A stretch of 64,000 nt of DNA from Alicyclobacillaceae bacterium I2511 (GTDB lineage: Bacteria > Bacillota > Bacilli > Alicyclobacillales > Alicyclobacillaceae). Both the position numbers and the translations under genes were made by a program. A model generated the notes under the pieces. It had not been told where the DNA came from. It worked only from the letters and a program-made list of their open reading frames with translations, and did no database searches. The stretch is from NCBI GenBank assembly GCA_003584005.1, contig QXHL01000001.1, positions 1 through 64,000 on the forward strand, written 5' to 3'. Positions 3,865 through 46,685 of this stretch are shown in pieces. How positions within the stretch are numbered: the first letter of the stretch is position 1; each line of letters opens with the position of its first letter.

Positions 3865-4057
3865 TTTATCTTCTCCATTTCAATGATCTCCAATTCAATT
3901 GTCTTCTACAATAACTGTATCCCCTATGGGAACTGTTATCAATGTGCAATTTTCGATTCTGACGAAGAGGGTATCTCTATTGCGTTCCCAGACTATAAAT
4001 TGTTATCGTATTCCGGGATTATTCAGTGGTAAGTTAATTCAATTAAAAATTGTCACT

Positions 4058-4669: not shown

Positions 4670-4833
4670 TTTCAACCCCTCCAACCTACAAGAGAACTCT
4701 TGTCAGAGAATTCAATATCTGCTCCATCTGCTCCCTGATGCCAGTGGACCACACCTGCCCATTGTGTACGGTTCCTATCTGGGTCTGTTTTCGTGCCTGT
4801 GTTTTACCTTTTTTGAGTGAACTACTCTCGCCT

Positions 4834-7832: not shown

Positions 7833-7890
7833 GCTGGCTCCTCCTGTCCGGGTGTACAATAAAAGAACTTAAGAAGCGAGGTGTCTGTCT

Positions 7891-8589
7891 TTGACCACTC
7901 CATTGAATCCTTCCGAAAAAACCGAGTTAATCCTGATTCGTCACGCCGTCACAGAAGCAAACCTGCGCCACGTGATGCTGGGACGGACCAACCCCCCCCT
8001 GCACCCCCTGGGGATTGAACAGGCACAGGCGATAGCCCAGGCTCTGGTGAAAGAACATTGGCACACAATATATACCAGCCCCTTATTGCGGGCCATGCAG
8101 ACCGCAGAAATCATTGCTCAAGCTCGAAGTTCTCAAGTCCACCAAAACATTGTCCCCCTCATTTTACCCGGCCTGGCTGAAATCGACCTTGGTGTGATTG
8201 ACGGGTTACCTTCCTACCAGGCCTACCAAGAGTTTCGCGAGGTGATGGACCAGGCGCTCGATCCCGAAGCGGATGACTTCGCATTTTCCGGTGGCGAAAG
8301 TCGCGTCGCTGTGCACCAGCGTTTTTATCTCGCTCTACAGGAAATCGTTCATCGTCACCCGGGACAACAGGTGTGTGCTGTCACACATGGAGGTGCACTG
8401 GGTCTATGGTTTGCGCGCAGTCACCAGGAACCTTTGGGCCACCTACGCCAGCGTCAACCCCAACACGCCTCCATCACCCGCGTTATTCACGAGAACGATG
8501 CCTGGCAAATAGCTCAATTCAACGACGTGTCCCATTTGCCCACAGCCCTACAGCAGGCCATTAAGGAGTTGGCTAACCAGGGCCCATAA
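7891..8589 (+). CDS. Histidine phosphatase family protein, candidate alpha-ribazole phosphatase (CobC)
   Basis: 232 residues from a TTG at 7891 preceded by GAGGTG at 7 bases. The phosphatase motif is LIRHAVTEAN, with A in place of the usual G; the second His is in AVTHGG. It is the only plus-strand gene in the cobalamin block and sits between cbiA and cobD, which favours a CobC role in completing the nucleotide loop. Its last 42 bases overlap the 3' end of the convergent cobD. Confidence 0.8.
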   Translation: MTTPLNPSEKTELILIRHAVTEANLRHVMLGRTNPPLHPLGIEQAQAIAQALVKEHWHTIYTSPLLRAMQTAEIIAQARSSQVHQNIVPLILPGLAEIDLGVIDGLPSYQAYQEFREVMDQALDPEADDFAFSGGESRVAVHQRFYLALQEIVHRHPGQQVCAVTHGGALGLWFARSHQEPLGHLRQRQPQHASITRVIHENDAWQIAQFNDVSHLPTALQQAIKELANQGP

Positions 8590-9684
8590 ACGTTGGTTGT
8601 CCACTCTACTGCGCACTGCTACCCGCAAATACTCTGTGCCTAGCCCCGTGAAACTGGCACAAGAACGCAGGAACAGCCCCTGGCGGGCTAACTGGTCATA
8701 AACAAATGTAGCCATGTCCGGTGTGGACATGCGCGTTAGAAAAAAGTTGACGTTGAGGGGGAATAACTGCAACCGGGGGTCCCCTTCCCAGTGTTGACGC
8801 ACATAGGCCAGTTCTTCCGTCAACCACTGGTGCGTGTTTTGGAAAAACTTTTGATCTTGAAAACCGGCGGTTGCAGCGGCTTGTGCCAATGAATTAACGC
8901 TCCAACCATCCCGATTTTGGTTGACTTGACTCGCCCATTTTTCTCCTGTGATTCCATAACCAAATCGTAACCCGGGAATGGAAAGCACCTTGGTGGCTGA
9001 TCGAAGGATTGCCAATTGTCGATGATTGTCCGCCCAAAAAACACCACTTGTTGCGTTTTGCTCAGGTAGCGATAAAAAATCTAAAAACGCTTCATCCATA
9101 AATACCCAAGCGCCCTTTTCCAGCCACCGAGCCACCGTTGCTTGCCACTGCACCCGAGTAAACCGGGTTCCTGTCGGATTGTGTGGGTTATTGAACACTA
9201 CCAAGTCACCAGGGAGGACCTTGGCCTGACCCATTGCGTTTAAAACGGCGACAGGATCCTGCCAAAGTTTGGCGGGAATTGGAATTTCTTGCACCTGCAA
9301 CCGAAGACGCCGAGGAATCGCCGCATATTCACCAAAGGCAGGAGTAAAAATCAGCGTCCTCTTCGGCATCAACCAGCGCCACAATAACTCCATAACCTCT
9401 GTCGCACCGTTGCCGACTACAAGTTGCTCAGGGGAGCAACCGTGATAGGCAGCTAAGACCTGTTTTACTTGCCACTGGCGAGCGTCTGGATAGTGCATGA
9501 CAGAGCCCATGGCCTCTGCCACGGCCTGCTGGACACTCACCGGAGGACCATTGGGATTGATGTTAGCGCTGAAGTCCACAATCTGGGCGGGATTGTGGTG
9601 CCACATCTCGGCGTACTCAGTCACCCGCCCCCCGTGCATTCCGCCCCCAATTACCGTCCGATTGTCCACATTCTTCATGCGCAT
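8548..9684 (-). CDS. cobD: Threonine-phosphate decarboxylase (CobD), PLP enzyme
   Basis: 378 residues from the ATG at 9684, preceded by AAAGGATGG; the longer frame to 9765 would run into cobS. A fold-type I aminotransferase resembling HisC: N-terminal GGRVTEYAEMW and DFSANINPNGPP (hallmark of CobD), N-P-H-N-P-T-G, and the PLP lysine in RSATKVLSIPGLRFGYG. It makes (R)-1-amino-2-propanol phosphate, which CbiB joins to cobyric acid. The N-terminal signature and neighbours separate it from histidinol-phosphate aminotransferase. Confidence 0.92.
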   Translation of the reverse strand: MRMKNVDNRTVIGGGMHGGRVTEYAEMWHHNPAQIVDFSANINPNGPPVSVQQAVAEAMGSVMHYPDARQWQVKQVLAAYHGCSPEQLVVGNGATEVMELLWRWLMPKRTLIFTPAFGEYAAIPRRLRLQVQEIPIPAKLWQDPVAVLNAMGQAKVLPGDLVVFNNPHNPTGTRFTRVQWQATVARWLEKGAWVFMDEAFLDFLSLPEQNATSGVFWADNHRQLAILRSATKVLSIPGLRFGYGITGEKWASQVNQNRDGWSVNSLAQAAATAGFQDQKFFQNTHQWLTEELAYVRQHWEGDPRLQLFPLNVNFFLTRMSTPDMATFVYDQLARQGLFLRSCASFTGLGTEYLRVAVRSRVDNQRLWALVSQLLNGLL

Positions 9685-9716
9685 CTTCCATCCTTTCTGG
9701 GATGAATGGGTCCTGA

Positions 9717-10535
9717 TTAGCCAGGAAGTTTCAGACAGGCCAAGACAAGCAGCCACCCGCTCCATTCCACCAACTCATTTAAGGCCCCGTAGGTGTCCCC
9801 TGTCATGCCGCCAAAGCGGCGGGTCATCCAGTGCGTAAAAGCCAGCGTAAGCCCCGCTGTCAGCAACCAGAGTGCTACTGTACACATCCAAACATTGTCC
9901 CCTGCACTTTTTCCTACAAGGCCAGGAAGAAAGGTCAGAAAGACTGTGGAAACAGCGGCCCCCCCCACCACCTTTCTGCCAATGCCCCTGGCGTAGAAGG
10001 CGCCCAACCCTTGTGGACGCGCACTGGGAGCCAACGTCATGGACCACACCAGAGCCATCCGTGCCACCGTGGGGACTGCGACGAAAGCCCATAAATCCCG
10101 GGTGGGTAGTGCGGCCAAAGCACTCCATTTCCCTCCTAATAGTAACACCGCTACCAGCACTCCCATGGCACCCACACGACTGTCCTTCATCACCGCCAAA
10201 GCCGCTTCACGGTTGTGACGACTCCCCAGGGCATCCGCCGTGTCCATCAACCCGTCCACATGCAAGCCACCCGTCAGCAGCGTGTAAACTCCAAGGGCCA
10301 ACCCTGTGGCAGGTAGGGGCGGCAAAACCAAACCGGCCGCACCTTGAACTACAAAAGCCACTCCTCCGAGGAGAGCCCCAACCCAGGGATACCAGGTCAC
10401 ACTGTGACGCAATTCCTGTTGTGATACATCTGCCAAAGTCGGTACCGGAATAATGGATAGAAAGGTGACCGCCAACGCAAAGGTTCTCCCCCAATACTTA
10501 GGATGTATCCAACGTAATGCAACTGTATGTTGCAT
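9717..10535 (-). CDS. cobS: Adenosylcobinamide-GDP ribazoletransferase (cobalamin synthase)
   Basis: 272 residues from the ATG at 10535. An upstream extension to 10661 is rejected because it would translate through a palindromic element. The family start FLSIIPVP and the conserved GGLHVDGLMDTADALGS followed by KDSRVGAMG identify CobS. Several hydrophobic helices make it an integral membrane enzyme that joins alpha-ribazole and adenosylcobinamide-GDP. The GAGGTG ribosome site is 11 bases upstream, a little long. Between cbiB and cobD in the same direction. Confidence 0.93.
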   Translation of the reverse strand: MQHTVALRWIHPKYWGRTFALAVTFLSIIPVPTLADVSQQELRHSVTWYPWVGALLGGVAFVVQGAAGLVLPPLPATGLALGVYTLLTGGLHVDGLMDTADALGSRHNREAALAVMKDSRVGAMGVLVAVLLLGGKWSALAALPTRDLWAFVAVPTVARMALVWSMTLAPSARPQGLGAFYARGIGRKVVGGAAVSTVFLTFLPGLVGKSAGDNVWMCTVALWLLTAGLTLAFTHWMTRRFGGMTGDTYGALNELVEWSGWLLVLACLKLPG

Positions 10536-10611
10536 ATTTGGGCCCACACCTCGGTCGCTCACGGTCGCAACTTCCTCCCTGCTTTTCGTCTGCCTCTTTT
10601 TGCCTGCCACC

Positions 10612-10672
10612 CTATAAGAGGTTGTCCGGAAAGGGGTCTGACCAGACCCCTTTCCGGACACACACTATAAGA
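10612..10672. mobile_element. Tiny palindromic insertion with 8-bp direct repeats
   Basis: The direct repeats CTATAAGA at 10612-10619 and 10665-10672 flank a near-perfect inverted repeat (10623-10660) built from TGTCCGGAAAGGGGTCTG and its complement around a single A. This is what a minimal transposable element (MITE-like) with target duplication looks like. The motif GAGGTTGTCCG at its left end recurs at 15208-15218 and, inverted, at 19429-19439. It could also act as an RNA hairpin between cbiB and cobS. Confidence 0.5.
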
Positions 10673-10691
10673 TGGGGTATCCCAATCCTGA

Positions 10692-11651
10692 TTACAGTCT
10701 TGGTGACAAGGCGCTGAGACAGAGCAACACCAACCATAGAAACCACACAGTGATGTGAAGAACCTGCACCGCCGACTCGATGTCCGCGGCAGTCAACGGG
10801 TGTATGTCTTCCCCCAACAGGGCGCGTTTGGTCGGTACCCCATCATAAAAGTTCTGACCCCCCAACCGGACGCCCAGACCGCCCGCCATCATAGCTTCTG
10901 GGATACCTGAATTGGGACTGGGGTGCCGCCTTGCATCCCGTGCCAAGGACCGCCAAGCCTGGCGCCAGTTCAGCCCGATGAAGAAAAAGGCAAGGGTCAA
11001 AAATATCGGAGTCAATCGTGCGGGCAGCCAGTTGGCTAGGTCATCCAAGCGCGCAGCCGCCCAACCAAAGTAGCGATAACGCGGGCTCTGATGACCTACC
11101 ATAGAATCCAGTGTGTTGACCGCTCGATATGCAATGGCTGCAACCGGGCCGCCCAAACAGGCGTAAAAAATAGGGGACACGACCGCATCAACAATGTTTT
11201 CGGCAACAGTTTCCACGGTTGCCCGCACCACCTCCGCCACATCCATATCCTTTGTATCCCGCCCCACAATTGCGGCAACCGCACTGCGACTTGCGGGTAG
11301 ACCTGACTGTGTCAAAGCCTGACCCACCCGCTGGCCCGCCTGTCCCAGACCTTTCCACGCTACCGTTGTCCAAATCAGCAAGACAGACACGACATCACCT
11401 ACCCAGGGTTGCAGCCCGTGCAATCCCCACAACAAAAACCATGCTCCCCCGCCAAAAACCAGCAAGGTGATGACCACCAGCGCCACACCGCGCGTGCGCA
11501 AGCTTACGGCAGGTAAATTGGGATGATTCAGCTTTTGCTCCCACAAAGCAATCCAGTGCCCCATCCAGGCCACTGGATGCCAATTACCAGGAGGATCTCC
11601 CAGCAGGCGGTCCAAGATTAGCGCAACCGCGGCGCATTCTGGGCCATTCAT
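10692..11651 (-). CDS. cbiB: Adenosylcobinamide-phosphate synthase (CbiB/CobD type)
   Basis: 319 residues. A membrane protein that attaches aminopropanol phosphate to adenosylcobyric acid. Recognisable by DRLLGDPPGNWHPVAWMG at the N-terminus, the central VAEVVRATVETVAEN segment, RAVNTLDSMVGH, and the C-terminal SGIPEAMMAGGLGVRLGG. The start overlaps the cobU stop (ATGA), showing coupling. Confidence 0.95.
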   Translation of the reverse strand: MNGPECAAVALILDRLLGDPPGNWHPVAWMGHWIALWEQKLNHPNLPAVSLRTRGVALVVITLLVFGGGAWFLLWGLHGLQPWVGDVVSVLLIWTTVAWKGLGQAGQRVGQALTQSGLPASRSAVAAIVGRDTKDMDVAEVVRATVETVAENIVDAVVSPIFYACLGGPVAAIAYRAVNTLDSMVGHQSPRYRYFGWAAARLDDLANWLPARLTPIFLTLAFFFIGLNWRQAWRSLARDARRHPSPNSGIPEAMMAGGLGVRLGGQNFYDGVPTKRALLGEDIHPLTAADIESAVQVLHITVWFLWLVLLCLSALSPRL

Positions 11652-12190
11652 GGCTGAACTTGAAAGTCGCGTAAGTTGATGCCCAATCCGGCCACTACCC
11701 AGACAACATCCTTTGCCAGTGCCGCAGTTTTTTGATTTAACCAGCCTAAGCCGTCGCGATAGACCCGTCCCAGGGGTGTGGTAGGTATCAATCCTTGCCC
11801 CACCTCATTGCTTACCACAAGGAGGTGACCGGGAAACTGGCTCACGGCCTGTAACCATGACTGTGAGCGATCTCTCAGGGCTGCTTCTCCCACATCTTGT
11901 CCCAGCCAGTTGCTTACGAGCAGTGATAGACAGTCTATAATCACAATCGGTCTGTTTGAATGCCCAACTAGCCATTCATCCACATTAAGGGGTTCTTCTA
12001 CCGTGACCCACCCAGGCGGCCGCTGTGCCTGGTGGCTATGAATACGCTGTGCCATTTCTGTGTCTCGCGCTTCCCCCGTCGCCACAAAAGTAACGGTCTG
12101 ATGCAAATCCCGTTCCCAGCGAGTGGCCCTTGCCAAGGCAAAGTCTGACTTACCACTGCGGGCCCCACCCAATACAAAGGTCAAGCTCAC
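11648..12190 (-). CDS. cobU: Adenosylcobinamide kinase / guanylyltransferase
   Basis: 180 residues from a GTG at 12190, chosen because it forms a GTGA overlap with the btuD stop and has GGAGG 5 bases upstream; the ATG two codons earlier is too close to that site. The P-loop GGARSGKSDFA, the guanylyl-acceptor region with QRPPGWVTVEEP, and VSNEVGQGLIPTTPLGR are CobU hallmarks. It activates adenosylcobinamide to its GDP form, the substrate of CobS. Also used in salvage of imported cobinamide. Confidence 0.94.
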   Translation of the reverse strand: MSLTFVLGGARSGKSDFALARATRWERDLHQTVTFVATGEARDTEMAQRIHSHQAQRPPGWVTVEEPLNVDEWLVGHSNRPIVIIDCLSLLVSNWLGQDVGEAALRDRSQSWLQAVSQFPGHLLVVSNEVGQGLIPTTPLGRVYRDGLGWLNQKTAALAKDVVWVVAGLGINLRDFQVQP

Positions 12191-12999
12191 ACCCATTCCT
12201 CCAGTCTGCGAATGACCGCGGATGCTTGCGATTTCAGTTCACCTTGCAAAAAGCTGAAGCGAATAAAATCTCCATACGGATCGCGAAAACGTCTTACTGG
12301 GACACCAAAAACTTCCACCACGCGCTGTTCCGTCAATACTTTGCTAGGTTCCCCTTGTACCAGTATTTTCCCATTAGCTAAAAGTACCAATGTGGTGCAG
12401 AAACGAGCCGCCATTTCTAAGTCGTGAATGGCCAGCACCACCAAATATCCTTCTCTTGCAAAAGTCCCCAGTCGATTAAGAATATCCAACTGGTGATACA
12501 AGTCCAAATTTGCCGTAGGTTCATCCAATAAGAAAATGGGACTCCCCTGTACCAGACAACGGGCCAGCCCCGCCCGCTGCCGCTCACCCCCGGACAAAGA
12601 TGCCATGGGAGTATTCATATAACGACCAAGATTCAAACTGTCTAAGGCTTCCGGGACCAAGCGACGATGGGTGGCCGACAGCCCCCCCCATAATCCACGT
12701 TTGGCATACATCCCCATTTCCACGAATTCCTTCACCGTGTAGGCAATGTCCTCAGGCAATTCCTGAGGCAAGTAGGCAATTTGCAAAGCTCGTTGACGGG
12801 ATGTGAGGTTCCGCAAATCTTGGCCATTGAGGGTTACCCGGCCATGACTCGGCCGCCAAAGTCCAGCCAACAACCGCAACAGCGTTGACTTACCCGCCCC
12901 ATTCGGGCCTAATAACCCTACCACTTGGCCCCCCTGCCAAGTCCCACTGGCTTGCTGTAAAATGGTCCCGTAGTCTGCATCGGCAACCTGCAATTCCAT
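12187..12999 (-). CDS. btuD: Cobalamin/corrinoid ABC transporter ATP-binding protein (BtuD-like)
   Basis: 270 residues with Walker A GPNGAGKST (about 31-39), Q-loop LPQELPEDIAYTV, signature LSGGERQRAGLARCL, Walker B FLLDEPTANLD and switch His in AIHDLEMA. FecCD/BtuCD-type importer ATPase. AGGAGG lies 7 bases before the ATG. By context, following btuF and btuC under a cobalamin riboswitch, the cargo is a corrinoid; the sequence alone would also fit iron-siderophore uptake. Confidence 0.9.
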   Translation of the reverse strand: MELQVADADYGTILQQASGTWQGGQVVGLLGPNGAGKSTLLRLLAGLWRPSHGRVTLNGQDLRNLTSRQRALQIAYLPQELPEDIAYTVKEFVEMGMYAKRGLWGGLSATHRRLVPEALDSLNLGRYMNTPMASLSGGERQRAGLARCLVQGSPIFLLDEPTANLDLYHQLDILNRLGTFAREGYLVVLAIHDLEMAARFCTTLVLLANGKILVQGEPSKVLTEQRVVEVFGVPVRRFRDPYGDFIRFSFLQGELKSQASAVIRRLEEWV

Positions 13000-13003
13000 T
13001 TTT

Positions 13004-14029
13004 TTATCCTCCCTGAGTGCCGGTGGTACGACGTCGCAGCAGATACAAGAAAAAGGGAGCTCCTAAACAGGAAGTGACGATTCCTACATTAATCTCCACT
13101 GGTTGCAAAGCCATCCGCCCTACAACATCTGCAAGCAACAGCAGACTGGCTCCGCCTAGTGCGCTGGCAGGCAGCAGGCGCCGATGACTGGGCCCTACCC
13201 AGTGGCGCAAAAGGTGTGGCACAATCAGGCCCACAAAGCCAATTACGCCGGTAGCACTCACACAGGTGCCCACCACCATGGCGCTAGCAAACAGCGCCAA
13301 CTGTTTCATTCGTTGCAGGGATACACCCACACCCTCAGCCTGTTCCTCACCTAACGATAATACATCCAAGGCAGGTGCCAGCCAAAAATAGAATCCCCCC
13401 CCCACCAGTGTCACTCCGGCCAGTATCCCAGCCACCGGCCAACTACTGTCATCAAGGCCGCCCATCAACCAGAACAGTATTTGTTGCATCGTTTCCAGGG
13501 GTGCCAGTGAAAGCAGCAAAGACATGAGGGCACTGGCCAGCGATCCGAGGGCGACTCCTGCCAACAAAAGGGCGTACAAAGCAGTTCTTCCCTGCACAGT
13601 GGCCAATCGATAAATCACCCAGACTGTCAACAGTCCGGTTAGAAATGCTGCCACGGGGGTCACCCAAATGCCTGCCTGGGACCATCCTAATTGAATGACC
13701 GCCACCGCACCCAACGACCCTCCACTGGAAACCCCAATAATCCCCGGATCGGCCATGGGATTGCGAAAAATCGCCTGCAACACCGCCCCAGTCGCTGCCA
13801 GACTGCCCCCTACCAAGGCCGCCACTAAGGCACGAGGCCAGCGAATGGCCCCCATGACCACGGCATCTGCACCCCGGGAGCCTTGAAAATACGCGAGCGT
13901 TGCAGAAATAATTTTGCCTGGGGAAATTCCGATGGGTCCCAGGGATACTTCCAAGGTAAGGGCCACAAGCAATAAACCACACAAAACGAAAAAAACAGGA
14001 AAGGATCCAACCCGTGAGTTGACTCTCAT
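13004..14029 (-). CDS. btuC: Corrinoid ABC transporter permease (BtuC/FecCD family)
   Basis: 341 residues from the ATG at 14029, which follows AGAGGTG at 6 bases. About ten hydrophobic helices. Family marks include PRALVAALVGGSLAATGAVLQ, GVSSGGSLGA, and near the C-terminus GVIGFVGLIVPHLLRHWVG with LLLLADVVGR. It forms the membrane channel with BtuD and receives substrate from BtuF. Only 4 bases separate it from btuD. Confidence 0.92.
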   Translation of the reverse strand: MRVNSRVGSFPVFFVLCGLLLVALTLEVSLGPIGISPGKIISATLAYFQGSRGADAVVMGAIRWPRALVAALVGGSLAATGAVLQAIFRNPMADPGIIGVSSGGSLGAVAVIQLGWSQAGIWVTPVAAFLTGLLTVWVIYRLATVQGRTALYALLLAGVALGSLASALMSLLLSLAPLETMQQILFWLMGGLDDSSWPVAGILAGVTLVGGGFYFWLAPALDVLSLGEEQAEGVGVSLQRMKQLALFASAMVVGTCVSATGVIGFVGLIVPHLLRHWVGPSHRRLLPASALGGASLLLLADVVGRMALQPVEINVGIVTSCLGAPFFLYLLRRRTTGTQGG

Positions 14030-30922: not shown

Positions 30923-31014
30923 TGGCGGAGTGAGAGGGATTCGAACCCTCGATACGCTTGTGACGTATACTCGCTTAGCAGGCGAGCGCCTTCGACCTAC
31001 TCGGCCATCACTCC
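30923..31014 (-). tRNA. tRNA-Ser (GCT)
   Basis: Acceptor GGAGTGA / TCACTCC, long variable arm as expected for serine, anticodon GCT in CTGCTAA, discriminator G and encoded CCA. Last gene of the cluster. Confidence 0.95.
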
Positions 31015-31017
31015 ATA

Positions 31018-31093
31018 TGGTGGGCGGTAACGGGCTCGAACCGCTGACCCCCTGCTTGTAAGGCAGGTGCTCTCCCAACTGAGCTAACCGCCC
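31018..31093 (-). tRNA. tRNA-Val (TAC)
   Basis: Acceptor GGGCGGT / ACCGCCC, anticodon loop CTTACAA, T arm GGTTCGAGCC, encoded CCA. Three bases separate it from tRNA-Ser. Confidence 0.95.
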
Positions 31094-31165
31094 GAACATC
31101 TAAAAAAATTTTGTCAGAATATCCGCAAATAGAATCCTCAGTAGCAAATCTCAATTCAATAATTC

Positions 31166-31240
31166 TGGTGACCCCAGGGGGACTTGAACCCCCGTTACCG
31201 CCGTGAAAGGGCGGTGTCTTAACCACTTGACCATGGGGCC
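31166..31240 (-). tRNA. tRNA-Glu (TTC)
   Basis: Acceptor GGCCCCA / TGGGGTC with one G-T pair, anticodon loop CTTTCAC, encoded CCA. Confidence 0.95.
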
Positions 31241-31280
31241 TAGTCACGGCGCGAACAGAGTCCGCGCCGTCCACACACTC

Positions 31281-31356
31281 TGGAGCTCCCAACCAGATTC
31301 GAACTGGTGACCTCATCCTTACCATGGATGCGCTCTGCCAACTGAGCTATGGGAGC
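31281..31356 (-). tRNA. tRNA-Thr (GGT)
   Basis: Acceptor GCTCCCA / TGGGAGC, anticodon loop ATGGTAA, encoded CCA. Confidence 0.95.
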
Positions 31357-31357
31357 G

Positions 31358-31432
31358 TGGCTCCCCGAGTAGGATTCGAACCTACGACCCTCCGGTTAAC
31401 AGCCGGATGCTCTACCGCTGAGCTATCGAGGA
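31358..31432 (-). tRNA. tRNA-Asn (GTT)
   Basis: Acceptor TCCTCGA / TCGGGGA, anticodon loop CTGTTAA, discriminator G, encoded CCA. One base from tRNA-Thr(GGT). Confidence 0.95.
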
Positions 31433-31473
31433 ATAGATATAATCCACAGCACTAAACTATTTTCACAGTACTA

Positions 31474-31548
31474 TGGTGGAGGTAGTCGGATTCGAACCGA
31501 CGGCCCCCTGCGTGCAAGGCAGGTGCTCTCCCTCTGAGCTATACCCCC
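31474..31548 (-). tRNA. tRNA-Ala (TGC)
   Basis: Acceptor GGGGGTA / TACCTCC with one G-T pair near position 3-70, anticodon loop CTTGCAC, encoded CCA. Confidence 0.95.
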
Positions 31549-31603
31549 AGCTTCACCCTCAAACCAAAATTCAAAACACATCCAACTAGCCCATCAGAGC
31601 CAG

Positions 31604-31680
31604 TGGTCGGAGCAGCGGGATTTGAACCCACGACCTCCTGCTCCCAAGGCAGGCGCGCTACCAAGCTGCGCTATGCTCCG
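31604..31680 (-). tRNA. tRNA-Pro (TGG)
   Basis: Acceptor CGGAGCA / TGCTCCG, anticodon loop CTTGGGA, encoded CCA. Confidence 0.95.
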
Positions 31681-31681
31681 A

Positions 31682-31758
31682 TGGTGTGCCCGGAGAGATT
31701 CGAACCCCCGACCTCTTGATTCGTAGTCAAGCGCTCTATCCAGCTGAGCTACGGGCAC
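31682..31758 (-). tRNA. tRNA-Arg (ACG)
   Basis: Acceptor GTGCCCG / CGGGCAC, anticodon loop CTACGAA (A34 expected to be edited to inosine), encoded CCA. Confidence 0.95.
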
Positions 31759-31785
31759 GTATAACCCTGCGCAAGGGTTGTACTG

Positions 31786-31860
31786 TGGCTGGGGAGGAAG
31801 GGTTCGAACCTTCGCCTGACGGAATCAAAGTCCGTTGCCTTACCTCTTGGCTACTCCCCA
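31786..31860 (-). tRNA. tRNA-Gln (TTG)
   Basis: Acceptor TGGGGAG / CTCCCCA, anticodon loop CTTTGAT, discriminator G, encoded CCA. Confidence 0.95.
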
Positions 31861-31863
31861 ATA

Positions 31864-31940
31864 TGGGGTGAGCAGTGGGAATCGAACCCACGCGTGCCGG
31901 ATCCACAATCCGGTGCGTTAACCACTTCGCCATGCTCACC
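31864..31940 (-). tRNA. tRNA-His (GTG)
   Basis: Starts with GGTGAGC and ends GCTCACC plus CCA, which includes the extra G(-1):C73 pair typical of histidine tRNA. Anticodon loop TTGTGGA. Confidence 0.95.
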
Positions 31941-31941
31941 A

Positions 31942-32017
31942 TGGCAGGGGCGGCAGGATTTGAACCCACGACATGCGGTTTTGGAGACCGCCGTTCTACC
32001 AGCTGAACTACGCCCCT
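31942..32017 (-). tRNA. tRNA-Trp (CCA)
   Basis: Acceptor AGGGGCG / CGCCCCT, anticodon CCA in TCTCCAAAA, discriminator G, encoded CCA end. Confidence 0.95.
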
Positions 32018-32056
32018 GCATGTACTCCAGAACCCCTGAACCTGCCACAGTACAGG

Positions 32057-32140
<84 letters not shown>

Positions 32141-32145
32141 ACAAA

Positions 32146-32221
<76 letters not shown>

Positions 32222-38806: not shown

Positions 38807-40276
38807 TTACATCTTTTGCCCCTTCAGTGTCCACGTTTGGGGATGTTCAATTTTTACTTGGACCAATTTACCAGTGAGTTCTTCCGAACCAGGAAATAAA
38901 ACTAACTTGTTTGTACGGGTTCTCCCTGCTAACACATCCGCGTTGGTCTTGCTCCGCCCCTCTGTCAACACTTCTACCACTTGACCCTGCAATGCCTGAT
39001 TTTTTTTTAAACTGATGGCATATTGGAGGTCATTCAAACGCTGTAAGCGTAGCCGTTTTTCGTTCATAGAAATGTCGTCTTGCCAAATAGCGGCTGGCGT
39101 ATTTTCTCGTGGTGAGTAAATAAACGTAAAAGCGTTATCGAACTGAACTTCTTCCAATAAATTCAGAGTATCAGTAAACTGGCTCTCCGTTTCCCCCGGA
39201 AAACCTACAATAATGTCTGTCGTAAGGCTGACATCTGGAATAATGCGGCGAATTTTGTTCACCAAAGCGAGATAAAACTCTCGCGTATGTGTACGGTTCA
39301 TCTGTTTCAAAATTTGATTGTTGCCAGACTGAACTGGCAGATGAATATGTTCTACCACATGTTTGGACTGTGCAATCACAGTAATCAGTTCATCGGTAAA
39401 ATTCCAAGGATTAGATGTCGTAAACCGTATTCGCTCGATGCCGGGAAGGGCATTCACTGCGCGCAACAACTCCGCAAAATTCACCCCATCAAGGTCCACA
39501 CCATAATCATTCACGTTTTGCCCCAATAAGGTGACCTCTTTCACTCCCTCGTGCAAAAGCCCAGAAATTTCGGTAAGGATGTCTTCTGGGTGACGGCTGC
39601 GTTCAGTACCTCGAGTGTAAGGAACAATACAATAGGTGCAAAACTTGTTGCACCCGTATTGAACATTCACCCAAGCTCGCACCGCATCCCGCCGTAGACG
39701 GGGTAGCGATTCTATCGTTTGTCGTGGACCCTCCCACACCTCAAGAACCGTCTCTTGACTTTGCCGAGCTTGCATAACCAAAACGGGTAAACGGTGCAAA
39801 TTGTGAGTCCCAAACACTAAGTCCACCCAGGGAAACTTTTCGCGTACAAACTGAATGACACTTTTCTCCTGTGCCATACAGCCGCACAATCCCAGCAGTA
39901 ATTCCGGATTGTGTGCCTTCAAGGAACGTAAACGCCCAATCTCACCAAACACCTTGTCCTCAGCATTTTCTCGTACCGCACAAGTGTTGAACAAGATGAG
40001 ATCTGCTGCAGTATCTTCAGCCGTGTCCACCATGCCCATTGCGGCAAGTAATCCAGCCATCGTTTCCGTGTCATGTTCGTTCATTTGACAGCCGTATGTC
40101 TTGATATGAAATCGATAGGGCTCTCCAGAAACTTTCTGTCCCACTTGAAAATCTTTCGCCAGAGCTTGCACGTCAAAAGGAATATGTTCAACCGGATCAG
40201 CCCGGTGATTGCCAAAGGTAAGCCCTTCACCTGGACGGAGTCTCCCATCCCGAAGTTGTTGAATAAGATTTTCCAC
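38807..40276 (-). CDS. miaB: tRNA-2-methylthio-N6-dimethylallyladenosine synthase
   Basis: 489 residues from a GTG. Three domains: UPF0004 N-terminal cluster domain (TYGCQMNEHDTE, FNTCAVRENAEDKV, LGLCGCMAQ), radical-SAM domain with CNKFCTYC, and the TRAM domain at the C-terminus (VLTEGRSKTNADVLAGRT). It inserts sulfur into i6A37 made by MiaA. Confidence 0.97.
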   Translation of the reverse strand: MENLIQQLRDGRLRPGEGLTFGNHRADPVEHIPFDVQALAKDFQVGQKVSGEPYRFHIKTYGCQMNEHDTETMAGLLAAMGMVDTAEDTAADLILFNTCAVRENAEDKVFGEIGRLRSLKAHNPELLLGLCGCMAQEKSVIQFVREKFPWVDLVFGTHNLHRLPVLVMQARQSQETVLEVWEGPRQTIESLPRLRRDAVRAWVNVQYGCNKFCTYCIVPYTRGTERSRHPEDILTEISGLLHEGVKEVTLLGQNVNDYGVDLDGVNFAELLRAVNALPGIERIRFTTSNPWNFTDELITVIAQSKHVVEHIHLPVQSGNNQILKQMNRTHTREFYLALVNKIRRIIPDVSLTTDIIVGFPGETESQFTDTLNLLEEVQFDNAFTFIYSPRENTPAAIWQDDISMNEKRLRLQRLNDLQYAISLKKNQALQGQVVEVLTEGRSKTNADVLAGRTRTNKLVLFPGSEELTGKLVQVKIEHPQTWTLKGQKM

Positions 40277-40384: not shown

Positions 40385-41653
40385 TCAAGACTCTCTGGCA
40401 AGTTCTTGGAGATAATTTAATACTCCTTGCAACGATCGCTGCCGAATCACAGGCTCATCAAATTTCATTGGTTTCGCATTGGCCTCAAAAAACCATACCC
40501 GGCCAGACGGATCCACGCCTAAGTCCACAGACATCTCTCCCAACTGACTCTGGAAATGTTCATCAATGGCTCCCGCACAACGAATGGCCGTCTGTTCCAA
40601 AGACATTTTTACAGAGTCTGGATTTTCCGGGAAGGCACGCTTCAGTGTTTCCACCCCAGATGCAATGGATCCCCCGTTGGGAACGTGTGTCGTGATGGAT
40701 GTGGGTCCTGCTACCCGCACCCCGATGCCCACTATATTCCAATTACGTTTGTCCTTTTGTGTCAGAATACGAAAATCACAAGGCCTCTCATGCCAGGTGA
40801 TACGGTCAATTGCCTGCTGCACAACATAAGACCCTTTCAGTCGATGGCTTTGTATTGCTCTCCATAACTCTGACCATGTGGCACAAGTACAGTCATAGGA
40901 CACCCCATGTTTGACTAAAGCGCGAAGACGAAATTCTCCACTTGTGTGCTCAATGTGCATAATGCCTTGTCCTATACTGCCATCGACTGGTTTTAAATAC
41001 ACTGTCCCAAACCGTTGAAGAAGTCTCTCCACAATGCCTGGAAACAACCCCTCTACCGTCACCGGTAAGTACTCCTGCAACCCACGATTTCTTAGTATTT
41101 TGTACAGTGAAGCCTTATTAAAATACTCCGGATTAAACATAGGGATTCCTTGACTGGCTAACAGTGCCTTTGCGCGTCTGGATTGGGCAGAACGTTCCAG
41201 TACTCGATTGGGAATTCGGTTATACACCGCCTGGGGGCGAGGACAAGGGATGGAAATCCACTTTTTGTACCCAATTCTCACAAATCCTTGCCATATTTCC
41301 TGTGAATTCACGTGGTCTACAGGAAGTACATAGAGAAACAGGTTTTGTTGTGCGGCCATCGAAATCAAGTCCCGAAAATCTGATCGACTACCAGAAAAAG
41401 TAGTGTTTCCTGCAAGAACAGCAAAAATGGGATCTACCACCCATCTCCCCACATGCTTGTGCAGAGTGATTGGGTGACGATAAATTTCGTGCACTTTCTG
41501 TAGTTGTGAGAGGAGCGGTACAGGTGTCCCAGAAATTGAAACTATCTCTGGAAGAACCCCCTCCAACGCTTCGCGAAGGGGGACATACAGTGCAAACTCA
41601 ATACGTCCCTGTCGGCGATACCAGATGAGTTCTCCCTTTAAAGTCTTCTCCAC
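40385..41653 (-). CDS. ATP-grasp amide ligase, YheC/YheD type (fourth gene of cluster)
   Basis: 422 residues from a GTG at 41653, chosen because AGGAGG lies 9 bases upstream. YheC/D-type ATP-grasp: N-terminal domain to about 180, ATP-binding lysine in GTVYLKPVDGSIGQGI, substrate-side RPCDFRILTQKD, metal-binding end MSVDLGVDPSGRVWFFEANAKP. The family is known from endospore coat-associated YheC and YheD and belongs to a superfamily that joins carboxylates to amines. Lies between miaB and the COOH-NH2 ligase gene. Substrate unknown. Confidence 0.85.
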   Translation of the reverse strand: MEKTLKGELIWYRRQGRIEFALYVPLREALEGVLPEIVSISGTPVPLLSQLQKVHEIYRHPITLHKHVGRWVVDPIFAVLAGNTTFSGSRSDFRDLISMAAQQNLFLYVLPVDHVNSQEIWQGFVRIGYKKWISIPCPRPQAVYNRIPNRVLERSAQSRRAKALLASQGIPMFNPEYFNKASLYKILRNRGLQEYLPVTVEGLFPGIVERLLQRFGTVYLKPVDGSIGQGIMHIEHTSGEFRLRALVKHGVSYDCTCATWSELWRAIQSHRLKGSYVVQQAIDRITWHERPCDFRILTQKDKRNWNIVGIGVRVAGPTSITTHVPNGGSIASGVETLKRAFPENPDSVKMSLEQTAIRCAGAIDEHFQSQLGEMSVDLGVDPSGRVWFFEANAKPMKFDEPVIRQRSLQGVLNYLQELARES

Positions 41654-41771
41654 CCTTGTCACCCTCCTGCGCAAAAACATCGGACACTTGTCACATAAGT
41701 CTTAAGCCCCTCAGATTTTGACGGTTCATCAAAGCCGTAAGCAGGACAGATTGGCACGAGAAGATCTCTGC

Positions 41772-43244
41772 TCACGACAGCGTTCGCACTTCCACGCGGC
41801 TTGAACGACGGGTAGTTTGACGCTTCTTTACCACGGGAAGCCCCCATACCTTGCGTACATCCATCTGTTCATCCCAGTGCTGGTTCTGCTGAATCATGTC
41901 AAATAAAGGTTCCAAAGCTTCTCTGGACTGTCCATAGTTAGGTAATGCACGTAAAAAAAACATGTTCCGTTGGGCAATCGGAAACAATATCGCGGACTGT
42001 CCTTCATAAAAGGCTGTTTGTAATCCAGGTTCATATAAATCAAACACGGGCAAGTCATGATGATATCGGGCAACCACGTAGGCCAGTGTTAAAGCAGCCT
42101 CCGTCACTTCTTTATTCACCACAAAGCTTGCCGGTGTTCGGTATTCAAATCCGCCGTGTTGTTTAAAACGAATGTCTCCCAAAAATCCATATCGAGGGCG
42201 ACGCAAACGTGCCGTCAGCGGGTCTTCTACCATCATGGTTAGCAGCCCCAAGTAGTTGTCTAACGCCCGCACCAACCGACTCGAAAAGGGAATTCCCGAA
42301 ATATGAATGTGTCCGCCTGTACAAAACGGTCGAAATGGCATGCTCCCAGCCCGCCATTCAATTTTAGGCCATGGAATCAGTTCTAGTCCCTCCAACATCG
42401 TTTCACGCAGGTTCTCCAGTAAACCCGCCGGAGTAGCGGACGAATCTGGACGAAATTCTAATAAAGGCAGACGTTTCCCGTCAAACTGTATGCTTCTGTC
42501 ATCACAACCCACTCTACCTGTGCGGGTTGCGTAGCGACTGGCCAGCACCATTTTCCCTTGGGCGTTGCACAACATCAATTCGATGTCTGTACCCAGTTGC
42601 AATTGTGACAGTCCAGTTGCTCCATTTTCATCTCCGCTATCCATCAAGACTTCAACAGCCTGAGTGTACAACTCCAGTAAACGGCCAGTCAGCAATGGCG
42701 TCACTGTCACGTCCAGTACGTACAGTACACCCTTTTGTGTCATGCCAATACTGACAAGGCCATGATCCAATCCCAAGCTATGAAGCGAGCGAAGTGCCAA
42801 CCACATGGCCCGAGTATTGACATTTTCACTGTCAAAATCTACTTCGCGAAAAGATTCTTGAACCCGTTGAATGCGGCGGCTAATCCATGCCGGACCATGA
42901 TCCGCGCGGAAACATGCCAGGGCTTGTAAGTTAAATATTGGAAAACGATACTGTCGCACAATGTGTACTTCACTTGTATCCTCAGACTTATCCAATGGCA
43001 AAAACCGGATGCCAAACCGTTGTAATAGACGTCCCACCGCAGTACGGCTGCGTACCCTTGCTAGAGCGGCCCCAGGATTCAAAATATATCCCAAGGATGG
43101 GTCGTTTTCCTTGGACTGCCCCCAGCGAATGACGGTGTCAGACGACGTGACCAGAGAGTTGGACGCATACTCGTGCAGACGCCTTACACGCCGCAGCAAA
43201 CGGACTGCCGAGGGTTGACCGGCGTGAAGCAAATAGTAGGCCAT
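41772..43244 (-). CDS. phiEco32-type COOH-NH2 ligase fused to an ATP-grasp-like N-terminal domain
   Basis: 490 residues from the ATG at 43244, which follows AAGGAGA. The C-terminal part (about 235-440) resembles the glutamine-synthetase/GCS-like COOH-NH2 ligase type 2: GTDIELMLCNAQGKMVLAS, LLEFRPDSSATPAGLLENL, TGGHIHISG and DNYLGLLTMMVEDP, i.e. the acidic and histidine metal ligands of the GCS fold. The first ~230 residues look like a reduced ATP-grasp module ending in VLYVLDVTVTPLLTGR, where the usual E-x-N is D-V-T, so that half may be inactive. A double-ligase fusion, role inferred as peptide bond formation on an unknown substrate. Confidence 0.7.
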   Translation of the reverse strand: MAYYLLHAGQPSAVRLLRRVRRLHEYASNSLVTSSDTVIRWGQSKENDPSLGYILNPGAALARVRSRTAVGRLLQRFGIRFLPLDKSEDTSEVHIVRQYRFPIFNLQALACFRADHGPAWISRRIQRVQESFREVDFDSENVNTRAMWLALRSLHSLGLDHGLVSIGMTQKGVLYVLDVTVTPLLTGRLLELYTQAVEVLMDSGDENGATGLSQLQLGTDIELMLCNAQGKMVLASRYATRTGRVGCDDRSIQFDGKRLPLLEFRPDSSATPAGLLENLRETMLEGLELIPWPKIEWRAGSMPFRPFCTGGHIHISGIPFSSRLVRALDNYLGLLTMMVEDPLTARLRRPRYGFLGDIRFKQHGGFEYRTPASFVVNKEVTEAALTLAYVVARYHHDLPVFDLYEPGLQTAFYEGQSAILFPIAQRNMFFLRALPNYGQSREALEPLFDMIQQNQHWDEQMDVRKVWGLPVVKKRQTTRRSSRVEVRTLS

Positions 43245-43260
43245 CCGGTCACATCTCCTT

Positions 43261-44646
43261 TCAGCGTAAAGTGCTGTTATGTGCCAGATACAACGCATAC
43301 TGCAACGGACGTTTGAATGCCAGCTCTACTAAGTCTCGCCGACCAGAATGGGTATCAGGAGCTTTCCAGGGTTTTGAATTTACCTCTATAATCCACACTC
43401 TGCCACGTTGGTCTATCCCTAAATCCACCCCTAGTTCCCCAAATTTTTTTTTTGCCCCCTGTTCAATCACTTCTGCTGTGAGTAAAGCCACGCGTTTGAG
43501 TTCCCCTCTGACTTTGCGTTGCATTTTCACAGGGAAATTTTCACTGAGCACTTGGAAGACAGGATAAGCCTCCCCACCACCCGCGAGATTGGCTGTGAAA
43601 TCTCCAACTGGAGCAACCCGAGCAAACATCTTTGTTCGCTGCCACTGCCCATTCCCGTCCCGCTGCAAGACAATACGGACGTCCACTGGTCGGTCTTTGT
43701 AGTGTGCCAAGTCAATCCCTTCCTGCAGTAAGTAAGGCTTGGCCCGCAACCTCGGCAGCAATCCGACAATAACAGCCTTTGCGTCCCCATATTGTGTGGC
43801 AATGTGTTTACCTGCCTGTTTCGATTCCACTACATAAGCACCATCCTCCTTGCGTGTGGCACGCAGAATCCCAAGTCCGAGACTTCCATGCACAGGTTTA
43901 AAAAATGTGACAGAATGTTGACAGAGAAAAGTGGCCGCTTTCGAACGGCTTTGGTAACGCTGGGTAAGAGGAACATGCACTCGCGTTCGGATGTCCGCAA
44001 CAAGCCAACGATGAGTCTCCCACTTATCCAGAAATCCCTCGTTAAAAATCCTGCCTTCGTAGATTAAGCTCAAATGTTTACGCCTTTCTCGGTACTCTGA
44101 ATTATGCTCCATTTTTCTGGACAACACTTGGTCATAAATAACGTCTGGTAACGGTACAATCATCTTGTTCCAAGACCCACCCTGCCACATAAATGCTCGT
44201 ACCTGCATTTCAATGAAATTGATGTCCCGCAATCCAAATACATACACCAGAGCCCCCAATTGCTTCCCAATTCCAATCATCTTGCGCAGCCCAGGTTCTT
44301 GTCGATTGAGGAACATTGTTGAATGTTTGTCATCCCACTTTGGATTACAAAGGATTCCAATGGTGGGACCTAGGTGAATGCGATTTGGCCATATGAATGC
44401 GGGCAACCAATCTGACTCCAAATTACCCAATATCTGTCGAAATGCCTTTACACTCACAAGCACACAATCTACGGGTACCGAAGCATCTAAACTTACAGGT
44501 ATCTCTATCTCCCGTCCACCGCAACTGAGTTTACAACGTGTGCTATGAGTGTCTGGCCACAGCAACCCTTGGTCAATCGGATGTAATCGTATCATGGTAT
44601 AGGGACTGTCAAATATGAGCAATCTCCTACGTATGGCCGTTGGCAT
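43261..44646 (-). CDS. ATP-grasp amide ligase, YheC/YheD type (second gene of cluster)
   Basis: 461 residues from the ATG at 44646, which follows GGGGGTGA; a GTG three codons earlier is possible. N-terminal domain to about 200, then ATP-grasp: VTFFKPVHGSLGLGI with the ATP lysine, RPVDVRIVLQRD, and ELGVDLGIDQRGRVWIIEVNSKP with the Mg-binding E-x-N. FGELGVD is preceded by a run of ten A, a slippage site. It is separated from the third gene by 16 bases. Same family as spore coat-associated YheC/D. Confidence 0.87.
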   Translation of the reverse strand: MPTAIRRRLLIFDSPYTMIRLHPIDQGLLWPDTHSTRCKLSCGGREIEIPVSLDASVPVDCVLVSVKAFRQILGNLESDWLPAFIWPNRIHLGPTIGILCNPKWDDKHSTMFLNRQEPGLRKMIGIGKQLGALVYVFGLRDINFIEMQVRAFMWQGGSWNKMIVPLPDVIYDQVLSRKMEHNSEYRERRKHLSLIYEGRIFNEGFLDKWETHRWLVADIRTRVHVPLTQRYQSRSKAATFLCQHSVTFFKPVHGSLGLGILRATRKEDGAYVVESKQAGKHIATQYGDAKAVIVGLLPRLRAKPYLLQEGIDLAHYKDRPVDVRIVLQRDGNGQWQRTKMFARVAPVGDFTANLAGGGEAYPVFQVLSENFPVKMQRKVRGELKRVALLTAEVIEQGAKKKFGELGVDLGIDQRGRVWIIEVNSKPWKAPDTHSGRRDLVELAFKRPLQYALYLAHNSTLR

Positions 44647-44669
44647 CCGATTCACCCCCAGACCTCGCC

Positions 44670-45866
44670 TTAATCGGAATTAAACCCGGTTGCGCTGATA
44701 GCATATTCAAGGAGCGTGGCCAATGACATTTGGCGGAGGTCCGGGTCTAAAGTGCGCAACATTCGTCTACCGGGTGTTGGGTTAATTTCAAATACCATGG
44801 GTTGACCTTGAACGTCCAAAGCCAAATCAACCCCTACTTCTCCAAAAGGCCCATATCGTCGTTTGAGTTCTACGGCAATTTCAATAGCAATGCGGTCCAG
44901 TTCTGTCAATTTGTCTTGCCAAGACGTGGGGTAGGTTTGGCGCACCACCTCAGAAGCAGACATCGCCACACCTCCGGTGTGAATGTTTGTTGTCACACTG
45001 GCAGGCCGTCCTACCCGTGCGACTCTGGCCGTCACCCTGGTTCCTGAAGCACATTGCACCAACCAACGAAAATCATACGGGCCTTGATCCTCCAGATGCG
45101 GTAAAATCACCGTTTTCTGCACAATAACTTTGTGCAATCCACGCATTTTCAGAAAAAGTCCAAAATCAGACACATTATTAAATACCTTTTTTTTTGTCTG
45201 TACGTTAGAAAAACGCACTATCTTTTGTTTTTGACCCCATTTACCAAGCGTTGTGCCATTTTGATAGCTCCTATCTTCCCAAAACGCCAACGCTTGGTTT
45301 TGCTGCCACACCAAATGAATCACAGAGATCCCCTGGGCTCCCTGTAATGGCTTGATGTAAACATCGCGAAATTGCTGTAAAAGCGCCCAGGCATGGGCTG
45401 CCGACGTGGCTCGAGCAGATCGTGGTAAATAAGCTGTGAGCTGAGGATTATGCCGCATGTCCTGATAAAATTGCCATTTGTCTCCACAAATCCGAGGCAA
45501 GGTATGCAGCCTACCTTCTGTTCGAAAACGTTGTAGATCGACAGTGGCCTCTAATTCCTGTTGTGGAAAAGCCCCGGAACGTCGAAAAACAAGATCGGGA
45601 TAGGGAACAGGTCCCAGAATCCATCGATGGCCCTTATTCTCATACCGCCAACCCATGCGTTCACGCATAAAACCCGGCGTCAACACGATGACGTCAACAC
45701 CCATTTGTCGTCCGATTTGAATGAGATCCGACAAAAGCCAGGTCTGCTCGCCAAATGGACGGTGGGGGTTCTCCTCTTTGCGGACATATACTCCCACACA
45801 CGGTCCGAGCCTCTGGATTTTGGACTCCAAATTCAGAAATGGACTAGAAATCACGCGGACAGTCAC
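44670..45866 (-). CDS. ATP-grasp amide ligase, YheC/YheD type (first gene of cluster)
   Basis: 398 residues from a GTG at 45866 with CAGGAGG 9 bases upstream. N-terminal pre-ATP-grasp domain with CVGVYVRKEENPHRPFGEQ; ICGDKWQFYQDM marks the junction; VYIKPLQGAQGISVIHL holds the ATP lysine; YDFRWLVQ; and EVGVDLALDVQGQPMVFEINPTP holds the metal ligands. A run of nine A lies in QTKKKV. It follows cotE past a terminator and is first of the four-gene ligase cluster. Confidence 0.87.
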   Translation of the reverse strand: MTVRVISSPFLNLESKIQRLGPCVGVYVRKEENPHRPFGEQTWLLSDLIQIGRQMGVDVIVLTPGFMRERMGWRYENKGHRWILGPVPYPDLVFRRSGAFPQQELEATVDLQRFRTEGRLHTLPRICGDKWQFYQDMRHNPQLTAYLPRSARATSAAHAWALLQQFRDVYIKPLQGAQGISVIHLVWQQNQALAFWEDRSYQNGTTLGKWGQKQKIVRFSNVQTKKKVFNNVSDFGLFLKMRGLHKVIVQKTVILPHLEDQGPYDFRWLVQCASGTRVTARVARVGRPASVTTNIHTGGVAMSASEVVRQTYPTSWQDKLTELDRIAIEIAVELKRRYGPFGEVGVDLALDVQGQPMVFEINPTPGRRMLRTLDPDLRQMSLATLLEYAISATGFNSD

Positions 45867-45888
45867 GGGTCCACGCCTCCTGACAGCA

Positions 45889-45911
45889 AAAAGGGGCTAA
45901 TCGCCCCTTTT
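45889..45911 (-). terminator. Terminator between cotE and the ligase cluster
   Basis: AAAAGGGGC / GCCCCTTTT stem with a 5-base loop; on the minus strand it ends in TTTTT. It lies 45 bases past the cotE stop, and the ligase ribosome site follows within 15 bases, so read-through or a promoter overlapping the terminator must serve the cluster. Confidence 0.85.
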
Positions 45912-45955: not shown

Positions 45956-46495
45956 TTAGTCCTCAACTTCCGCTTCTTCTAGTAAATCTTCGTCACCGTC
46001 CGCAAAATCCTCATCCTTCTTTTCCGCCAGTTCGCAAGTCACGACACACAGTTTGGTCTTCCCCACGACTTCAACACCCAGTTCTTTTTCAACCCGCACC
46101 AGAATTTCAGAACCGTTGCCTGTTACAGTTGCATCCAAACAGTTAGGATTTTGCAAAACTCGTACAGAAACCTCTCGAGTTTCCCTCTCTGCTGCAGTAT
46201 CTAACTCTCGTAAGGCAATTTGCTCCACATAAGAAACCGTGTCCTTCGCCACTGCAGTTTCGGAATTCCCATTGTACGAATACCATACATTTACATCAAA
46301 ACGGCCGTGGATTTCTACATAATCTCCTACCAGCTCCGCGTCGTAGGTGTGATTCATCACCCAGCAACCGCCAATCGTGGTCGGTCGGTTGGCTGGACGC
46401 AGCGTATAAGTCGTCTGCGAATACTTGCTGCCACGACCGCATACGGCGCTAGCCACGATTTCTCGATAAGCCAGGTCTTTCGCTGAGAGCACCAT
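45956..46495 (-). CDS. cotE: Outer spore coat morphogenetic protein CotE
   Basis: 179 residues, the CotE length. N-terminal REIVASAVCGRGSKYSQ, central VEIHGRFDVNVWYSYNG, and the acidic C-terminal tail (rich in Asp and Glu) that recruits outer coat proteins. GGAGG precedes the ATG. CotE organises the outer coat around the forespore under mother-cell control. Three ATP-grasp genes and a COOH-NH2 ligase gene follow it on the same strand, which ties them to coat assembly by context. Confidence 0.95.
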   Translation of the reverse strand: MVLSAKDLAYREIVASAVCGRGSKYSQTTYTLRPANRPTTIGGCWVMNHTYDAELVGDYVEIHGRFDVNVWYSYNGNSETAVAKDTVSYVEQIALRELDTAAERETREVSVRVLQNPNCLDATVTGNGSEILVRVEKELGVEVVGKTKLCVVTCELAEKKDEDFADGDEDLLEEAEVED

Positions 46496-46685
46496 GCGGT
46501 AACCTCCTCACAAACAGTCCTTCTACGGCAACCGGTTTTCACGGCGTTCGCCCAGTCTTGCCGTATTGCATCAGTATGCGAGAAGGATTTGAATGGTGTC
46601 GGAGCCGTACGGCCAAAGGAAGATTTTAAACACATAGGAACTGTTGAAGTGCTGGAGTAAAACAATAGAGGAATAGACGTCAAAA

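Follow-up and report, generated by a model that had tools for sequence, protein, structure and literature searches.

What do four consecutive genes for predicted amide ligases do directly behind the gene of an outer spore coat organizer? The question is raised by a 64,000-nucleotide stretch of DNA from Alicyclobacillaceae bacterium I2511 (contig QXHL01000001.1, positions 1 to 64,000; here called the window). Three YheC/D-type ATP-grasp genes (PF14398; AG1, AG2, and AG3) and one amidoligase gene (PF14395; CNL) lie codirectionally between cotE and miaB, as a first, sequence-only reading had described, and profile searches confirm all of these assignments, the four enzymes scoring above the cut-offs of 25 bits (PF14395) and 26.8 bits (PF14398). 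The cluster is real and conserved, and a new kind of system is not indicated on present evidence. The explanation slightly favored here is a mother-cell amide-ligase set which builds or attaches a short peptide-like chain on or in the spore coat.

Catalytic residues and folds of the four enzymes

In all three ATP-grasp proteins, both lysines, the D-x-R motif, and the metal-binding E-x-N site are retained, and every one of these is at least 90% conserved among 31 sequences per protein. The residues are K130, K172, D265-x-R267, E343/D347, and E360-x-N362 in AG1; K211, K253, D325-x-R327, E407/D411, and E424-x-N426 in AG2; and K189, K230, D302-x-R304, E382/D386, and E399-x-N401 in AG3. The sequence-only reading had noted the ATP lysine and the D...E-x-N end in all three proteins, and their conservation in relatives bears this out. 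In CNL, the motifs D-x-E, E-x-R-P, H-x-H, RR, and GFEYRT are invariant in 47 sequences from several classes, with the aspartate of a D-x-R motif present in at least 90% of them. By analogy, these motifs would correspond to the metal- and substrate-binding residues of the gamma-glutamylcysteine synthetase fold.

Structure predictions for CNL and AG2 point in the same direction. The AG2 model (predicted local distance difference test, pLDDT, 91.7) ranks RimK first and PsnB second among PDB folds, followed by D-Ala ligases and glutathione synthetase; the two top matches act on a ribosomal protein (RimK) and a peptide (PsnB). Scores against the RimK family TIGR00768 reach at most 19.6 bits, compared to a cut-off of 143.4. 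The CNL model (pLDDT 92.1) matches GshF, YbdK, GshA, and glutamine synthetase; it also has separate matches to ATP-grasp folds. A sequence-based search of solved structures yields nothing useful. The first 208 residues of CNL resemble the end of an ATP-grasp domain, with a moderate hhalign match to AG2 (70% probability; E value, 4e-5) and better support from the structural match. This N-terminus may be a dead ATP-grasp remnant, since it has not retained the E-x-N triplet and apparently lacks the ATP-lysine region. The intact catalytic residues and the nearest folds, RimK and gamma-glutamylcysteine synthetase, thus support a predicted amide-ligase chemistry for AG1 to AG3 and CNL.

Linkage to cotE and predicted timing and joint action

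The order cotE-AG1-AG2-CNL-AG3 recurs in all family members with an intact region and is therefore not due to chance. CNL is present in 57 of 61 genomes (the source genome and its relatives). An apparent loss of AG1 and AG2 in one genome (G026) is an artifact of open reading frame (ORF) calling. In a quick tree of the ATP-grasp genes, AG1 falls into a single orthologous line across Alicyclobacillus, Tumebacillus, Kyrpidia, and Sulfoacidibacillus, as does AG2, both with a support of 99 and within the order. Behind cotE, the window's family carries four genes, the sister family adds a fifth, AG4, and most relatives outside the window's family have a fourth ATP-grasp paralogue. Because AG3 of the window groups in this tree with the ATP-grasp gene that ends the five-gene clusters, the window's family has probably lost one such gene, and the ancestral set probably consisted of four ATP-grasp genes and CNL. 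AG1, AG2, and this terminal gene all represent old orthologous lines.

Among 300 genomes of the class, 159 encode CNL, 208 CotE, and 201 YheC/D proteins, and all 159 CNL genomes carry both CotE (Fisher p 2e-41) and YheC/D (p 7e-46). The median number of YheC/D copies, counted as a lower bound from about 8 per genome upward, is at least 8 in genomes with CNL, compared to 1 in CotE genomes without it. When the position lists of CotE and CNL in the class genomes are compared by reading, the two genes lie within ∼5 kb of each other in about 24 families; G183 is the one clear exception. CotE is near CNL in nearly all named loci. The conservation beside cotE for which the sequence-only reading had asked is thus found. 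In relatives from Paenibacillus, Aneurinibacillus, and Thermoactinomyces, CNL stands alone between cotE and mutS, with YheC/D genes elsewhere in the genome.

Across 398 genomes of the phylum, 51 encode CNL and 49 CotE; among the 45 CNL genomes outside the class, 22 also have CotE (p 4e-15). The rule that CNL never occurs without CotE is true of the class sample and false across the phylum. Clusters outside the class show the orders CotE-AG-CNL-AG-AG-AG and CotE-CotE-AGx4-CNL or combine ATP-grasp genes and CNL without detectable CotE. Five loci from lineages outside Bacilli (L131, L133, L137, L184, and L186), which had been reported to lack CotE, contain two tandem CotE-like genes followed by four ATP-grasp genes and CNL. 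CotE-like genes adjoin CNL in lineages such as Thermincola; an earlier survey did not see CotE in clostridia (PMC3533761).

The timing of expression was approached through promoters, as the sequence-only reading had proposed, with a divided answer. Strict SigE and SigK patterns have no match upstream of cotE. A looser SigK-like pattern, AC-N16..18-GCATA[CT], picked after inspection and named by resemblance, is present in 40 of 59 loci within the 230 nucleotides ahead of cotE, compared to 0.018 expected per locus. This conserved element resembles the SigK consensus. In Bacillus subtilis, the cotE promoter P2 is controlled by SigK, and yheC and yheD are under SigE and SpoIIID (PMC517825). A perfect-stem terminator is found in the gap between cotE and AG1 in 23 of 45 order-level loci but in only 11 of 900 control stretches (1.2%), and a terminator also follows cotE in 20 of 32 other loci. 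Since the window leaves no promoter space between the terminator and AG1, expression of AG1 to AG3 would depend on read-through, with much CotE and little enzyme as the result.

A further indication comes from another class: in two species that share a genus, CNL is cut inside the active-site motif GFPIGG-HIHYS by an element of 5.35 kb (G600) or 5.21 kb (G619). The element encodes a 504-residue large serine recombinase (PF00239, PF07508, and PF13408), its ends have short repeats in common, and the joined flanks of CNL are in frame over 466 and 465 codons, respectively. It looks like an undescribed sporulation gene-intervening element. Known elements of this kind interrupt sigK (skin), spsM (SPbeta), and gerE (gin) and are removed in sporulating cells, with the excision of skin and SPbeta restricted to the mother cell (PMC4191935, PMC5595907). 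If the element in CNL behaves like skin and SPbeta, with the excision that its sequence predicts, CNL would be needed solely in the mother cell. The strict co-occurrence of CNL with CotE in the class, the adjacency of their genes there, the SigK-like promoter, and this skin-like interruption in a distant genus together support placing the enzymes, by prediction, in a spore-coat context.

Joint action is indicated by gene fusions. CNL and YheC/D form one protein of ∼870 to 985 residues in five families, in three of which a MurF-like ligase gene adjoins the fusion gene. Of the fusion loci L153, L154, L155, L156, and L200, all but L156 have a gene for a MurF-like Mur ligase behind the fusion gene; in L131 and L133, a MurF-like gene adjoins the cluster on the opposite strand. 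The fusion gene of L153 is also followed by genes for a phosphoenolpyruvate (PEP) mutase and a phosphonopyruvate-decarboxylase-like protein. Together, these neighbors suggest a peptide or phosphonate product. Linked peptide ligases frequently catalyze successive ligations with distinct moieties, according to a paper that cites Iyer 2009 for this point (PMC4431377). This tendency and the fusions favor a stepwise assembly of a peptide-like chain, and the conserved paralogues, the fusions, and the MurF-like partner support the prediction that the enzymes act as a set.

Candidate acceptor and alternative explanations

In the favored explanation, the four genes encode ATP-dependent amide ligases that the mother cell would produce while the coat is being assembled. 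Their transcript would be headed by cotE, with partial read-through of the terminator behind it yielding many CotE molecules and few enzymes. CNL probably activates a carboxylate, possibly of a side chain, and forms an amide bond that either comes first or introduces a branch, after which AG1, AG2, and AG3, along with the fourth paralogue of other families, would each add a residue in the fashion of RimK. The product would be a short chain, either a peptide or a poly-amino-acid, that is bound to the spore coat or deposited in it. More tentative is the possibility of a covalent coat modification so far unseen, in which an ancestral set, comprising one amidoligase and four ATP-grasp ligases, assembles a nonribosomal peptide or poly-amino-acid step by step on the CotE layer. 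Such a modification would be widespread among endospore formers and lacking in the Bacillus model species. This absence, if true, would explain why the modification went unnoticed.

Several points weigh against the favored explanation. No acceptor or precursor gene is found inside the cluster, and no MurF-like partner is seen in the window's cluster or in its order. In the class sample, 49 of the 208 CotE genomes lack CNL, and outside the class about half of the genomes with CNL show no detectable CotE, which means that CotE is not always needed. For PF14395 and YheC/D proteins alike, the literature searched describes neither an activity or a substrate nor a clear mutant phenotype. The gaps from cotE to miaB (89, 14, 16, 118, and 108 bp) hold no precursor-peptide ORF of the kind that would define a graspetide locus and no space for a hidden one, in agreement with the sequence-only reading, which saw no peptide-substrate gene.

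The lack of an acceptor protein in the cluster would suit a free small peptide or poly-amino-acid, whether glutathione-like, cyanophycin-like, or a secondary metabolite, stored in or around the spore. The nearness of CNL to GshA/GshF-type enzymes, the resemblance of the fusions and their MurF-like ligase to cyanophycin synthetase, and the PEP mutase gene behind one fusion locus speak for such a product. However, the persistent linkage of the cluster to a structural coat gene, cotE, speaks against it, and the cluster contains neither a transporter nor a tailoring gene, which makes a free product rather unlikely.

Somewhat less probable still is a special case of coat attachment, in which CotE itself is the acceptor and its acidic tail is glutamylated or peptide tagged, like tubulin tails by TTLL enzymes. 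CotE may be the acceptor on grounds of position, given its adjacency to CNL in about 24 families; its tail in the window's order is rich in glutamate (E/(D+E), 0.60), and YheC/D proteins match TTL weakly. The tail is nevertheless unspecific as an argument, because the CotE tail is equally acidic in 12 CNL-free genomes (E, 20%; D, 22%); that of many CNL-bearing genomes is rich in aspartate, and the CNL clusters without detectable CotE also speak against this acceptor. Of the pathway proposed in the sequence-only reading, the amide-ligase chemistry, the coat context, and the joint action are supported, whereas the choice of CotE for its acidic C-terminus is not.

It is improbable that YheC/D and CNL are mainly structural coat components with a retained enzyme fold and dispensable catalysis. 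B. subtilis YheD, the one YheC/D protein known to localize to the forespore surface, does self-associate strongly and forms a shell around the forespore (PMC7911427), but the catalytic residues are among the most conserved positions of all four proteins, even in very distant genomes. A housekeeping or vegetative function, incidentally placed beside cotE among housekeeping genes such as miaB and mutS, is scarcely credible in view of the absence of any CNL genome without CotE among the 159 of the class sample, the SigK-like promoter, and the skin-like interruption of CNL.

Locus layout and comparison with known systems

The minus-strand gene order is ymdB, M19 dipeptidase, cotE, AG1, AG2, CNL, AG3, miaB, ymcA, mutS, and mutL (Table 1). 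CNL most likely starts at the ATG at 43244, preceded by AAAGGAG and shared as a start by homologues; AG3 most likely starts at the GTG at 41653, judged by its ribosome-binding site (AGGAGG) and homologue starts. The source genome, a 3.48-Mb draft that is 98% complete, also encodes SpoIVA, and its relatives by sequence are Alicyclobacillus and allied genera. The rest of the genome contains two further YheC/D genes and no second CNL. On contig C166 of this genome, a YheC/D gene is flanked by a GT4 glycosyltransferase gene and a kinase-like gene that weakly matches CotS, an arrangement reminiscent of the cotS-cotSA coat region. Some Alicyclobacillus relatives have a PhzF-family isomerase gene between AG3 and miaB.

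Table 1. Features of the window and, where a locus is named, of other loci
Feature	Position	Strand	Basis
SigK-like promoter element upstream of cotE, AC-N17-GCATACTGAT	46570-46597	minus	resemblance
cotE, outer spore coat morphogenetic protein	45956-46495	minus	PF10628, E 1.1e-58
Intrinsic terminator between cotE and AG1, AAAAGGGGCGATTAGCCCCTTTTT	45888-45911	minus	sequence prediction
AG1, YheC/D-type ATP-grasp ligase	44670-45866	minus	PF14398, E 5.9e-47, 160 bits
AG2, YheC/D-type ATP-grasp ligase with N-terminal domain	43261-44655	minus	PF14398, E 1.3e-73, 248 bits
CNL, amidoligase	41772-43244 (corrected start; ORF call to 43298)	minus	PF14395, E 8.9e-91, 304 bits
CNL domains: degenerate ATP-grasp-like N-terminus, then gamma-glutamylcysteine-synthetase-like ligase domain	41772-43244	minus	
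AG3, YheC/D-type ATP-grasp ligase	40385-41653 (corrected start; ORF call to 41680)	minus	PF14398, E 2.2e-63, 214 bits
miaB	38807-40276	minus	
Cluster of 13 tRNA genes	30923-32221	minus	
Split CNL with element, L203 (G600)	6989-13733		
Split CNL with element, L204 (G619)	3608-10212		
Fusion locus, L153	4548-9544		
Region of the YheC/D gene on contig C166 of the source genome, L058	4493-9915		
PhzF-family isomerase gene, L074	12851-13765		
PhzF-family isomerase gene, L096	8542-9516		

The gene context has probably been described already. Iyer et al. reportedly predicted in 2009 the joint context of PF14395 and PF14398 in firmicutes, with a role in spore coat or wall modification, and Pfam, following Iyer et al., lists PF14395 as a family that occurs next to YheC/D and CotE in firmicutes and is predicted to act in spore coat biosynthesis. 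A literature search found no experimental paper on the cluster. The present analysis measures the size and depth of the association in 300 and 398 genomes and adds the orthologous lines, the fusions and their MurF-like neighbor, the promoter, the terminator, and the split gene. Spore-coat chemistry is known mainly from B. subtilis, a species without the amidoligase. Should the coat be modified by this set, a coat-building step absent from the model organism would exist in about half of the sampled class, and YheC/D, long-known coat proteins, would gain a testable reaction. Alicyclobacillus is a juice-spoilage genus with acid- and heat-resistant spores, which offer an accessible testing ground for the idea of coat modification. 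The cluster is a good, testable lead.

Compared with the cluster, B. subtilis has no PF14395 protein (control genomes searched), and its cotE is followed directly by mutS-type genes. Its YheC and YheD are nevertheless of the same ATP-grasp family, coat associated, and expressed in the mother cell (PMC517825, PMC7911427). RimK (poly-alpha-L-glutamate synthetase) and ArgX/LysX, which are ATP-grasp ligases and lengthen a protein by adding amino acids, are among the nearest solved folds of AG2, which shares only ∼16% identity with them and has an extra N-terminal domain. CNL resembles the gamma-glutamylcysteine synthetase superfamily (GshF, GshA, and YbdK) in the fold and motif pattern of its ligase domain but differs in the degenerate ATP-grasp-like N-terminus and in having no sequence match to solved structures. 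The fusion loci with a MurF-like ligase recall cyanophycin synthetase in combining ATP-grasp and Mur-ligase logic, albeit with another domain order; a profile search finds no Mur domain in the window's cluster and hence no enzyme uniting both. The element in CNL has an amidoligase gene as its target and an excision predicted from sequence; like skin, SPbeta/spsM, and gin, it carries a recombinase and splits a sporulation gene (PMC4191935, PMC5595907).

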